NCBI GenBank assembly: GCA_016209155.1
Contig: JACQWU010000045.1
Coordinates: 1 to 5,383 of the forward strand
DNA: 5,383 nt
Source: Candidatus Desantisiibacteriota bacterium
GTDB taxonomy: Bacteria > JACRDZ01
Direction: 5' to 3'
Shown one piece after another: positions 1,191 to 5,383 of this stretch (position 1 is its first letter; each line of letters begins with the position of its first letter). The position numbers and the translations under genes were made by a program. Below the pieces are notes generated by a model, which searched no databases, was not told the origin of the DNA, and saw nothing but the letters and a program-made list of their open reading frames with translations.

Positions 1191-2029
1191 AACCACAAAA
1201 GGGAACTCTTTATTTAGTAAGTACACCCATTGGGAATCTTGAAGACATCTCATACCGTGCTTTACGCATATTAAAAGAAGTTGATATTATTGCCGCTGAA
1301 GATACCCGTCATACAAGAATACTTCTTTCACATTACGGGATAAAAACTCCGACAACAAGTTTCTATTCTTACAATCAAAAAACTAAAATCCATTATTTAT
1401 TAAACCTGCTTGATTCAGGTAAAAATATTGCGCTTGTAACTGATTCAGGAACGCCCGGGATATCAGATCCGGGACATGAAATAATCCATCAGTCCATATT
1501 GCAGAATATACCAATTACTTCTATCCCGGGGCCAACTGCGCTAATTACTGCGGTTATTAGTTCCGGATTCCATACTAATAGATTTATATTTGAAGGTTTT
1601 TTATCTTCAAGACAAAATGCCCGCAGGCAGGAGCTTGTAAAGATAAAAGATGATACAAGGACATTAATTTTTTATGAATCACCTCATCGTTTAAGATCCA
1701 TGCTTTTGGACATGCAGGACATACTTGGCGACAGACAAATAGTTTTAGCACGTGAATTAACAAAAAAATTTGAAGAAATACTCCGCGGAAAAATTTCGGA
1801 ACTTTTAGCTACTCTGCCGGAACATATTAAAGGAGAATTTACAATAGTTATGGAAGGCCAGTTAAAACATCAATCAATATCTCTTTCATCCGATCAGATC
1901 CGCATGGAAATTGAAAAAATAGTAAAAAGTGAAAAAATGGATAAGAAAAACGCGATTAAAAAACTCTCTTCTCTTACCGGAATTCCGAGAAAAGAAATAT
2001 ATAATGCATGTATTTCGGATAAGACTTAA
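1187..2029 (+). CDS. rsmI: 16S rRNA (cytidine1402-2'-O)-methyltransferase RsmI
   Basis: RsmI uses S-adenosylmethionine to methylate the 2'-hydroxyl of C1402 in the decoding centre of 16S rRNA, tuning start-codon choice and fidelity. At 280 residues it has the usual full length. Tetrapyrrole-methylase-fold motifs appear in order: STPIGNLED (12-20), AEDTRHTR (37-44), VTDSGTPGISDPG (84-96), IPGPTA (113-118), FEGF (135-138), YESPHRL (163-169), ARELTKKFEE (188-197) and GEFTIVMEG (216-224). The C-terminal helical domain ends KKNAIKKLSSLTGIPRKEIY (253-272). The ATG overlaps the cytochrome stop (ATGA, 1187-1190) and I see no Shine-Dalgarno sequence before it. Translation therefore probably depends on ribosomes finishing the upstream gene. 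Its stop overlaps that of the convergent regulator gene. Confidence 0.96.
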   Translation: MKPQKGTLYLVSTPIGNLEDISYRALRILKEVDIIAAEDTRHTRILLSHYGIKTPTTSFYSYNQKTKIHYLLNLLDSGKNIALVTDSGTPGISDPGHEIIHQSILQNIPITSIPGPTALITAVISSGFHTNRFIFEGFLSSRQNARRQELVKIKDDTRTLIFYESPHRLRSMLLDMQDILGDRQIVLARELTKKFEEILRGKISELLATLPEHIKGEFTIVMEGQLKHQSISLSSDQIRMEIEKIVKSEKMDKKNAIKKLSSLTGIPRKEIYNACISDKT

Positions 2030-3006
2030 CTTTTCTCTTCTCTCATTTTTATAAATTCCTCGAGCAGATCTTTATCCCACCAGCCTCTTTCTGATTCCTC
2101 ACGCATTATTCTAATAGCTCTTTCTATGGTCATACTCGGACGATAGGGTCTGTCTGTGGTAAGAGCATCAAATACATCTGCAATAGCCATAATACGGGTA
2201 TAAACAGAAATCTGATCGCCTTTTAGTCCATCCGGATAACCGCTTCCATCTAATTTTTCATGATGATTACGGATAATCGGTATAATCTGGCCCATAGTCT
2301 TTTTTAGGGGTAAACACATTTCATATCCAAGTACCGGATGAGTTTTAATTATTTTATATTCTTCCTCTGTCAAACGTCCGGGCTTACTTAAGATTGCATC
2401 AGGAATTCCTATTTTCCCTACATCATGCAGGGCTCCTCCTTTTTTTATAATATCAAGCTCTTCCTGCTGAAGATAAATTTTTTTACCTAAATTATATGCA
2501 TATGCAGATACACGGTCTGTATGCCCCTGCGTGTAAAAATCCTTTTTTTCAATAAATCGCGCGATACTGAATATAACGTTCTCAACACTTTCGAGATGAT
2601 CATTCGACCTTTTTACTTTAATCCATCGTATCACAGTTGCCAGAAGCTCTAATTTATTTATTGGTTTTAGCATGTATTCTTCAGCACCCGCGTCAATCCC
2701 CATTATTTTATCCTCCAACTGGTCAAGAGCAGTTATTAAAATAACCGGAATTAACCGCGTTTTATCATTTCCCTTTATCTGACGGCAGACTTCCAATCCG
2801 TCTATTTTTGGCAGGCGAACATCCAATAAAATCAAATCAGGAAGATGATTAGAAATTTTTTCAAGAGCTTCCTCTCCATCACGTGCCATATAAAGCTCAT
2901 ATCCTCTGTTAAATAAATATGCTTCTAATAAGTTCAAATTCATCTCTTCATCATCAACAATTAAAATTTTTGGTTTATCGACATGCATTTCATGAGTAAA
3001 ATCCAT
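2026..3006 (-). CDS. Response regulator with HD-GYP c-di-GMP phosphodiesterase output
   Basis: A cytoplasmic two-component regulator of the RpfG type, 326 residues. The receiver domain spans about 12-130 and keeps every key residue: acidic pocket D18-D19, phosphoacceptor D62 in LLDVRLP, T92 and K114 (KP). A short helical linker leads to an HD-GYP domain (about 140-320). That domain shows GHTDR (161-165), the metal pair H194-D195 in HDVGKIGIPD, H223, the signature HHEKLDGSGYP (248-258), and D277 in MAIADVFDALT. All expected metal and signature residues are present, so it is probably active, degrading c-di-GMP when phosphorylated. The ATG at 3006 has AGGAGT 7 nt upstream; a second in-frame Met at residue 7 is less likely. 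It lies 53 bp after the histidine kinase on the same strand, its likely phosphodonor. It has no DNA-binding domain. Confidence 0.95.
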   Translation of the reverse strand: MDFTHEMHVDKPKILIVDDEEMNLNLLEAYLFNRGYELYMARDGEEALEKISNHLPDLILLDVRLPKIDGLEVCRQIKGNDKTRLIPVILITALDQLEDKIMGIDAGAEEYMLKPINKLELLATVIRWIKVKRSNDHLESVENVIFSIARFIEKKDFYTQGHTDRVSAYAYNLGKKIYLQQEELDIIKKGGALHDVGKIGIPDAILSKPGRLTEEEYKIIKTHPVLGYEMCLPLKKTMGQIIPIIRNHHEKLDGSGYPDGLKGDQISVYTRIMAIADVFDALTTDRPYRPSMTIERAIRIMREESERGWWDKDLLEEFIKMREEKS

Positions 3007-3059: not shown

Positions 3060-4832
3060 CTATGTAAAGATTCTGATACATTCCGCTAAAATGCTTTCCG
3101 GTTTATTTTTTCCTAATGTTATTACTTTTATTTCCAATTCCGGTTTAATTGAAGACGAAATTTTTTTCAGACAGTTATCCTTATTTTCTTCAATTCTCTT
3201 TTTAATGATCTTTACTCCCTCATCGCCGGTATCCAGAATAACCAAAAAAATTCCTTTACTTTTATAAAAGAATTTACAATCCTTTTTTTCTCTGAATAAT
3301 AAATTTAAATAATTTTCCATGCAATTTAGTGATTGTTCTTTTTCTGTTTCTCCAAATTTATCGAGATTATTTATTTTGCAAAAGAAAAAAGATACTGTTT
3401 CAATTTTCAAAACATGAATTGTCTGCAAAATTAAAAAATAAATATCAGAATATTCCGGCGGTACGACAGGTATAAAAAATAAAAAAATACTGCCTTTCCC
3501 CGGGATACTTTCAACCTTTATTTCTCCTCCATGCGCAACTGCAAACCTTTTAGCTATAGCAAGCCCGAGTCCCGAGCCGGGTTTAGTTGCATCAAGCTGA
3601 ACAAATTCTTCAAAAATATTGAAAAAATTTTCCTCTGCTATACCAATACCGTTATCCTGTATTTCTATAGAAATATATTTTAATATTAAATTATCGTATT
3701 TCTTTTCATACTCACGAGCTCTTATTTCAATTTTGCCTTCGATCGGAGTAAATTTTATGGCATTTGACAATAGGTTATCAATTATTTGTCTTATCTTAAT
3801 AGGATCGGCGTAAATATTTTTTGATTTTAGATCCAAATATTTATTTAAATTAATTTTTTTACCTATAATTAATGGAGTGAAATCATTTATTATCTGAAGT
3901 ATGGTATTTTCAATTGAAAATTTCTTAATATTCAGGGTATCCCTTTTATTTTCAATTTTTGTAATATCCAAAATACTTATAATCATTTTCAATAAACGCT
4001 TTCCGCTTATTTCCATATTTGTCAAATATTCTTTCTGTTTTTCATTTAGCGGACCAATAGTTTCATCCATTAAAATTTCAGAAAACCCTAAAATAGCATT
4101 AAGAGGTGTTTTTAATTCATGAGTAATACTTGCTATAAATTTGTTTTTCACTTTACCTGCTTCTTCCAGTTGTTTAGTCTTAACAATCAATTCTTCTTTG
4201 GTTTTATTTGCTTCTTTAAGTAAAATATTTATTTCGCCGGTATACTCCTGATTTAATATCTTTATAATATTAAAACTTGCCCACGCAATTACACCGGCGC
4301 ATACCATACGTAAAATTTCGGCAGGAATAATAAATATATCGGGAAACATATCTTTATTTATTAAATTTGCAGGAAAAAAATCACCTTTATCAACCATAAG
4401 CCCTGCTGCTATTCCATAAACTCCAAAACCGATAGTCCATTCTGTTAAATAATTTGCCATTTTAAAATTATCAATTTTAACTTTATTAAGCTTATAATAT
4501 TCAGGTATGCATACTGTAAGTAAAATACATGAAGGGAAACAAAGCAGGTACCGGCTAAAAGTTACCGCTATATCATAATCATAATTAAAAAAATATATGA
4601 CTATAAACAAAATTGAAACTGTTGTAAAAAATCTGTGTATATTAAATTTGATTTTACTATCTGTAATCAATTCATAAAATTTCAAAGCAAAAATGGAAAG
4701 AAAAATAAAGGATATAATAACTAATAAAGAATTAATATTTTTTAAAAATAAGCGTTCCTCGCGAAAATAAATAAATATGGTTATCCACTCGTGCGCTCCA
4801 TGTGTTAATCCAAATGCTCCTAAAAACCACAA
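3060..4832 (-). CDS. Membrane sensor histidine kinase with degenerate GGDEF-like C-terminus; 5' end probably lost
   Basis: It would phosphorylate the HD-GYP regulator downstream. Numbered from the TTG at 4832 (590 residues): membrane segments near 2-22, 35-55, 67-83, 89-111, 132-147 and 163-192; a charged coiled-coil-like linker (195-228); HisKA with H238 in ITHELKTPL (E..T phosphatase motif present); N box N353/N357; G1 box DNGIG (393-397); G2 box GSGLGL (419-424). Residues 460-590 lie outside the usual kinase core and resemble a GGDEF fold with KSKGIF in place of the catalytic loop. The start is doubtful: no ribosome site precedes the TTG. The frame stays open 14 further codons to a TAA (4877-4875), encoding FLLANILWFLGAFG, which reads as the lead-in to the HGAHEW membrane motif. 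In relatives as I know them, another membrane helix precedes this motif. The missing part coincides with the antitoxin junction. Confidence 0.88.
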   Translation of the reverse strand: MWFLGAFGLTHGAHEWITIFIYFREERLFLKNINSLLVIISFIFLSIFALKFYELITDSKIKFNIHRFFTTVSILFIVIYFFNYDYDIAVTFSRYLLCFPSCILLTVCIPEYYKLNKVKIDNFKMANYLTEWTIGFGVYGIAAGLMVDKGDFFPANLINKDMFPDIFIIPAEILRMVCAGVIAWASFNIIKILNQEYTGEINILLKEANKTKEELIVKTKQLEEAGKVKNKFIASITHELKTPLNAILGFSEILMDETIGPLNEKQKEYLTNMEISGKRLLKMIISILDITKIENKRDTLNIKKFSIENTILQIINDFTPLIIGKKINLNKYLDLKSKNIYADPIKIRQIIDNLLSNAIKFTPIEGKIEIRAREYEKKYDNLILKYISIEIQDNGIGIAEENFFNIFEEFVQLDATKPGSGLGLAIAKRFAVAHGGEIKVESIPGKGSIFLFFIPVVPPEYSDIYFLILQTIHVLKIETVSFFFCKINNLDKFGETEKEQSLNCMENYLNLLFREKKDCKFFYKSKGIFLVILDTGDEGVKIIKKRIEENKDNCLKKISSSIKPELEIKVITLGKNKPESILAECIRIFT

Positions 4833-4864: not shown

Positions 4865-4869
4865 AAATT

Positions 4870-5079
4870 TTGCATTATAGAAAAATATCCGCTGCCGCGG
4901 AAATTGAGCATCGCCCGATCTCTAATTTTATCAGTACCCATGTTTTGCGGGACATAGAAGAATCTTACTATGTTGATCCCGTTGAAATGGCTCAGATTAA
5001 ATCGGACAAAAGACTGCTATGGAAGCTCCATGCCGGACATTTAGACGTTAAGAAAAGAAAAGGTAAGTTAATTGGATAA
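4870..5079 (+). CDS. Type II antitoxin lacking its N-terminal DNA-binding strand (truncated remnant)
   Basis: The 69-codon frame begins at a TTG with no ribosome site; a stop (TAA 4864-4866) lies two codons upstream. What remains looks like the main part of a ribbon-helix-helix antitoxin. YRKISAAAEIEHRPISNFI (3-21) matches the two helices, where RP/S then S-F-I is the usual turn and second helix. A longer helix (22-35) follows, then a charged tail (36-69, YYVD...EMAQIKSDK...AGHLDVKKRKG) of the toxin-wrapping kind. The N-terminal strand of about 15-20 residues that contacts operator DNA is missing. The next in-frame ATG (4987) would remove both helices. It overlaps the toxin start by 8 bp, the normal antitoxin-toxin arrangement. 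It may still neutralise the toxin but should not repress the operon; it may equally be a dead fragment. Confidence 0.6.
   Translation: MHYRKISAAAEIEHRPISNFISTHVLRDIEESYYVDPVEMAQIKSDKRLLWKLHAGHLDVKKRKGKLIG
5058..5063 (+). promoter_or_regulatory. Ribosome binding site of the toxin gene
   Basis: AAAAGG lies inside the antitoxin's KKRKGK codons, 8 nt before the TTG at 5072. This supports TTG as the toxin start and coupled translation. Confidence 0.55.
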
Positions 5080-5350
5080 TTTTAAGATTTTTGAAACAAG
5101 TCAATTTGTAAATGGCCTTAAGCAAGATTTTAGCGGTCAGCAAGAGCGGATGAAAAGAAAGCTCGAATCCTACGTTTACCCTCAGTTAAAGCAAAATCCA
5201 TATTTTGGCAAGCATATAAAAAAACTCGTTAATTATACTCCTGAAACCTGGCGTTATAGAATAGGAGATTATAGGTTTTTTTACGCGGTTGATACATCTA
5301 AAAAGATAGTTTTTATGTTGACTGTTGACCATCGCGGCAGCGCTTATTGA
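5072..5350 (+). CDS. RelE/ParE-superfamily toxin of a type II toxin-antitoxin pair
   Basis: A 92-residue protein of the usual toxin length with TTG as start. Members of this superfamily either cut mRNA on the ribosome (RelE-like) or block gyrase (ParE-like). The mRNA-cutting type seems likelier here because of its basic, aromatic C-terminal half. Features: an N-terminal helix pair (11-40) ending YVYPQLKQNPYFGK; the core strand WRYRIGDYRFFY (60-71) with R61, R63 and R68; and a closing strand IVFMLTVDHRGSAY (79-92) with H87, R88 and Y92 as candidate catalytic residues. The ending is usually DHRKDAY in relatives I know; GS replaces KD here. The frame is intact although its partner antitoxin is truncated. 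The two genes overlap by 8 bp. This region looks richer in G and C than the kinase gene beside it, consistent with transfer. Confidence 0.85.
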   Translation: MDNFKIFETSQFVNGLKQDFSGQQERMKRKLESYVYPQLKQNPYFGKHIKKLVNYTPETWRYRIGDYRFFYAVDTSKKIVFMLTVDHRGSAY

Positions 5351-5353
5351 ACT

Positions 5354-5375
5354 GAATTTTGCTATTGCAAAATTC
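5354..5375. repeat. Perfect 9-bp inverted repeat just past the toxin stop
   Basis: GAATTTTGC (5354-5362) and GCAAAATTC (5367-5375) are perfect arms around TATT, starting 3 nt after the toxin TGA. No T run follows on either strand, so it is a poor intrinsic terminator. Its AATTTTGC core recurs at 4866-4873, at the left edge of the toxin-antitoxin piece. It may be the boundary of a mobile or captured segment. Confidence 0.6.
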
Positions 5376-5383
5376 GGGTTTAC

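Follow-up and report, generated by a model that had tools for sequence, protein, structure and literature searches.

What does a histidine kinase gain from a C-terminal tail that continues beyond its ATPase domain, when the gene next to it encodes an HD-GYP response regulator? This question is raised by the window, the whole stretch of DNA that was analysed, which is one entire contig of 5,383 bases from a draft genome with a completeness of 79%. The sensor histidine kinase reading frame (3060..4832, minus strand; 590 codons), recognised by alignment with the 627-residue relative P0002, encodes a HisKA phospho-acceptor domain with the motif THELKTPL (3948..4148, minus strand, residues 229-295; PF00512, E 1.3e-18) and a HATPase_c domain (3465..3806, minus strand, residues 343-456; PF02518, E 8e-26). 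The tail occupies 3060..3455 on the same strand (residues 460-590) and starts straight after HATPase_c, where the preliminary description had placed it. The regulator gene (2026..3006, minus strand) follows the stop codon of the kinase at a distance of 53 bases. Pfam assigned REC and HD-GYP domains to its product (PF00072, E 8.3e-28; PF13487, E 3.1e-39), and direct reading of the sequence showed the catalytic motifs HDxGK and HHExxDGSGYP to be intact, in agreement with the pairing described earlier. With a HisKA-HATPase kinase adjoining a REC-HD-GYP regulator, the locus has the make-up of a two-component system with an HD-GYP output.

The kinase tail is very likely a GGDEF fold

On its own, the tail (residues 460-590) had no match in Pfam or NCBIfam. 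No direct PF00990 match above the cut-off was obtained for it, and a profile of canonical GGDEF domains missed it, scoring 5.8 bits, which is within the range of shuffled sequences. The link between the window tail and GGDEF domains therefore passes through its relatives and its fold. A search with the window tail alone gave one weak match (L002, E 0.0016), which was rejected; it overlaps the frame of an unrelated protein.

Among the relatives, the corresponding tail at locus L004 in genome G001 matched PF00990 with an E-value of 2.4e-11 and a score of 44.1 bits (cut-off 23.8), and carries EKDEI at the motif position. A tail profile was built from 18 other kinase tails, with the window tail excluded and the ATPase edge trimmed. 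This profile recognised the window tail with 42 bits (E 2.8e-12; best of 1000 shuffles 0.009), and its hhalign comparison with 23 canonical GGDEF domains gave a probability of 99.6% over 136 columns, in which YKSKGIFLVIL of the window falls under the RYGGEEFAIIL columns.

The fold was modelled with AlphaFold2 from a 19-row alignment, model residue 1 being kinase residue 453, and the tail model reached a pLDDT of 82.8 and a pTM of 0.74. In model numbering, helix 7-23, strand 28-35 (SFFFCKIN) and helix 43-60 are followed by strands 67-71 and 76-81, which flank YKSKGIF, and then by helix 85-103 (KIIKKRIEE...), strand 114-121 (EIKVITL) and helix 126-137. Motif by motif, this is the order of elements that had been read from the sequence in the preliminary description, and hhalign agrees on the position of YKSKGIF. 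GGDEF domains led the Foldseek matches with a probability of 1.00, at modest E-values (best 0.0012), and every one of the best 50 VIA-align matches listed was a GGDEF domain, with Z 10.5-12.2 over alignments of 118-132 residues. The structure prediction thus returned neither a different fold nor disorder. Together, the sequence profiles and the predicted fold back the earlier proposal of a degenerate GGDEF fold that has no GGDEF motif, and we are confident that the window tail is a dead member of this fold. It shares fold and remote homology with the GGDEF domains (PF00990) of the diguanylate cyclases PleD and WspR.

The dead tail recurs among kinases

An HMM of the kinase core plus tail was run over 386 genomes. 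Full-length matches, that is, rows reaching the profile end, were obtained in 16 of the 386, nearly all of different families; a stricter HMM run returned 15 genomes, every one already present in the first run. In the small phylum around genome G240, kinase-plus-tail genes were found in all five genomes. The set of 32 distinct tailed kinases used below comes from these 15-16 surveyed genomes and three more of one phylum. Within the fetched loci, a GGDEF-like domain was located downstream of the kinase core in 34 of 216 distinct kinase frames, directly after the ATPase domain in 32 and behind receiver domains in 2, although these counts do not represent population frequencies, because resemblance to dead tails was the criterion by which loci were collected. 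The dead GGDEF tail is a recurring kinase module that family databases mostly miss. We found no account in the open literature of a dead GGDEF tail fused directly to a kinase ATPase domain, an absence that proves little. Separately, the kinases at L104 and L204 carry REC-REC-GGDEF behind the kinase core, with an intact motif in L204; the latter came from a scan of genome contigs in which general histidine kinases were among the matches listed, and serves as background only.

In a tree of kinase cores, 29 of the 32 tail-bearing cores grouped together with moderate support (85), and the cores of the window, L004 and L174 were placed among tail-less kinases. The tails were split from canonical GGDEF domains on one branch (support 99), the window tail ranking with the most divergent members (end branch 2.75). 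That the tail was gained only once was not supported by these data, as the cores of the window, L004 and L174 lie outside the main group. The trees suggest domain swapping, but long branches could explain the pattern too. The simplest reading would be that the dead GGDEF module is old and was attached to further kinase cores as well, with the long branches as a source of uncertainty.

The active site is lost and the inhibitory-site face is better kept

None of the hallmarks of an active diguanylate cyclase, namely GG(D/E)EF, the metal-binding Asp and the phosphate-binding Lys/Arg, was detected in the window tail, which in contrast to PleD and WspR also has no C-terminal end. The place of the active-site hairpin is taken by YKSKGIF (3246..3266, minus strand), as determined with hhalign and MAFFT against canonical GGDEF domains, and CKINN stands at the metal strand. 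The same trend extended to the whole set: the canonical metal Asp, the guanine-binding Asn/Asp, GG(D/E)EF and the terminal Lys/Arg were each kept in 0-10 of the 32 tails, GG(D/E)EF being present in none, and the C-terminal end was shortened. Judged by these residues, the window tail is predicted to be unable to make c-di-GMP, as had been expected from the absence of the catalytic loop.

For the inhibitory site, the columns of the 32 tails were compared with those of 97 intact GGDEF domains. At this position the window tail has REKKD (3279..3293, minus strand), which departs from strict RxxD by an extra residue between the Arg and the Asp, whereas the L004 relative has a strict RADD. The Asp was present in all 32 tails, and the Arg occupied the exact position in 14 and stood one residue earlier in 11 more; strict RxxD was hence found in 14 tails and lacking in 18, including the window tail. 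The position of the secondary-site Arg, aligned by position with R390 of PleD, was occupied by Arg in 25 and by Lys in 6 tails (31/32), these residue counts not being independent since the tail rows are related by descent. Over the 32 tails, the inhibitory-site face is better kept than the active site. The 97 intact domains served as a control: Arg was present in 89 and Asp in 93, and 6 of the 8 domains without the Arg nevertheless kept the Asp. This weakens the use of the invariant Asp as evidence for an inhibitory site, as it may be needed for the fold rather than for a ligand.

The HD-GYP partner belongs to this locus

At 13 of the 23 tail loci examined, a REC-bearing gene was found immediately downstream, often overlapping. 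A receiver-only regulator was the usual neighbour of tailed kinases, and most neighbourhoods contained no c-di-GMP enzyme. An HD-GYP partner was encountered at only two of the 23 loci, the window and L130, both from the same phylum. The HD-GYP partnership is therefore a property of this locus and not of the tail, and the special pairing of tail and HD-GYP regulator that the preliminary description had envisaged was not borne out. The second locus, in genome G001 (L004/L130), encodes a 627-residue kinase with a membrane N-terminus as in the window and an adjoining REC-HD-GYP regulator. Its regulator is 40% and its kinase 37% identical to those of the window, which fits one ancestral locus from which both were probably derived.

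A likely regulatory role for the tail

To our knowledge, direct control by c-di-GMP is established for only a few kinases. As in the RpfC/RpfG system, the kinase of the window is a membrane protein and its regulator is of the REC-HD-GYP type. RpfC is a hybrid kinase that also contains REC and Hpt domains and is not known to carry a GGDEF tail. SgmT of Myxococcus xanthus, like the window kinase, is a histidine kinase that ends in a GGDEF domain with a dead active site (PMC3509222). However, SgmT has the layout GAF-kinase-REC-GGDEF, whereas the window tail follows HATPase_c directly with no receiver between them. SgmT also retains an RHPD inhibitory site and a GGGVF remnant, whereas in the window the motif is wholly gone and RxxD is absent, and SgmT is an orphan while the window kinase adjoins a regulator gene. 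The window tail is SgmT-like in idea but built differently. According to the sections drawn on here of a report on CckA and RavS, c-di-GMP acts directly on both kinases, RavS binding it via its own CA domain, and RavR, the cognate regulator of RavS, has an EAL domain and was reported to degrade c-di-GMP (PMC6707612). Unlike the window kinase, neither RavS nor CckA is described with a GGDEF tail in those sections (PMC6707612).

In the genome that hosts the window there are 14 matches to GGDEF, several of which keep an intact motif, and c-di-GMP is therefore probably made in this organism. A non-enzymatic, regulatory role is in our view highly likely for the tail. More specifically, though with less assurance, we lean towards a regulatory GGDEF module that alters kinase output when a ligand or partner is bound at its inhibitory-site face. 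Such a tail would lie beside the kinase catalytic domain, and binding at this face would change kinase or phosphatase output. By analogy with the systems above, c-di-GMP is the foremost candidate ligand and would be the likeliest one in members of the tail family that have RxxD; for the window tail itself this assignment is tentative. The REC-HD-GYP regulator would receive its phosphate from the window kinase and would degrade c-di-GMP, so that a tail able to bind c-di-GMP would complete a feedback loop. In that event, two-component and second-messenger signalling would meet in one protein, with feedback built into this locus. The broadest proposal is that of an uncatalogued, widespread family of dead GGDEF domains fused directly to histidine kinase ATPase domains, which would confer second-messenger control and, here, allow a kinase to sense the very messenger broken down by its own HD-GYP regulator; as a whole, we regard it as doubtful. 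The 32 tailed kinases offer a test set for control of kinases by a dead cyclase domain, with the inhibitory site intact or not.

Conceivably, the tail could instead be purely structural or serve in docking, helping dimerisation or presenting the cognate receiver without binding a nucleotide. The loss of strict RxxD from the majority of the tails would be in line with this, as would the REC-bearing genes directly downstream, which mostly have no c-di-GMP domain. On the other hand, the inhibitory-site face, with its nearly constant secondary-site Arg/Lys, is kept better than the rest of the domain, and receivers are normally recognised through the DHp domain, the usual recognition surface of histidine kinases. 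We consider a structural or docking function possible rather than probable for the tails; for the window tail itself, it is almost as likely as regulatory ligand binding, because this tail has no strict RxxD.

A further possibility is docking between the tail and the partner regulator's HD-GYP domain. A review describes contacts of the RpfG HD-GYP domain with GGDEF proteins in Xanthomonas, for which the DxD motif of the GGDEF partner is required (PMC3749722). In both the window and L004, the tailed kinase indeed adjoins a REC-HD-GYP regulator, but the rarity of HD-GYP genes at tail loci and the replacement of the first-strand DID by CKINN in the window, if the same DxD is meant, make such docking unlikely.

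The missing kinase start and neighbouring features

The kinase frame is open back to position 4874, but the contig contains neither its first membrane segment nor a credible start codon. Aligned to L004, the frame begins inside the N-terminal membrane domain, past its first segment. Upstream of it are a stop, a small partner frame without a Pfam match (4870-5079) and a ParE-like toxin frame (5072-5350; PF05016, E 1.5e-7), the partner lying upstream of the toxin. Imperfect inverted repeats surround this toxin-antitoxin segment (4866-4877/5363-5374 and 4884-4899/5333-5348), which occurs once in the genome, and the contig ends just past it (4866-5383). It looks like a small inserted segment that cuts the kinase start in this assembly. 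That the tail is functionless, decaying baggage of a broken gene, as the missing start and the strong divergence of the window tail might suggest, is improbable given that no stop interrupts the frame within the tail, the fold is confidently predicted, both the regulator and the kinase boxes are undamaged, and many families have retained dead tails.

The N-terminal membrane domain of the window kinase (4233-4832), with the pattern FG..HG..EW, has no Pfam match. The same domain was observed on a PAS-like protein in genome G003 (L041:1483-2790), whose gene is flanked by a GGDEF gene on one side and by one encoding an HD motif (HDIGK) on the other. It may be an uncatalogued sensor domain with a connection to c-di-GMP genes. 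Another G003 gene (L034:1501-2928) encodes a kinase with this membrane N-terminus that is 42% identical to the L004 kinase over 485 residues and has no tail; sensor and tail are therefore not obligately linked.

Elsewhere in the window, a c-type cytochrome (619-1190; SoxA/TsdA-like, PF21342, E 4.5e-18) appears to be split over two frames near 780-800, with the haem motif CKGCH in the first frame and CGSCH in the second; either the gene is frameshifted or the contig is misassembled at this point.
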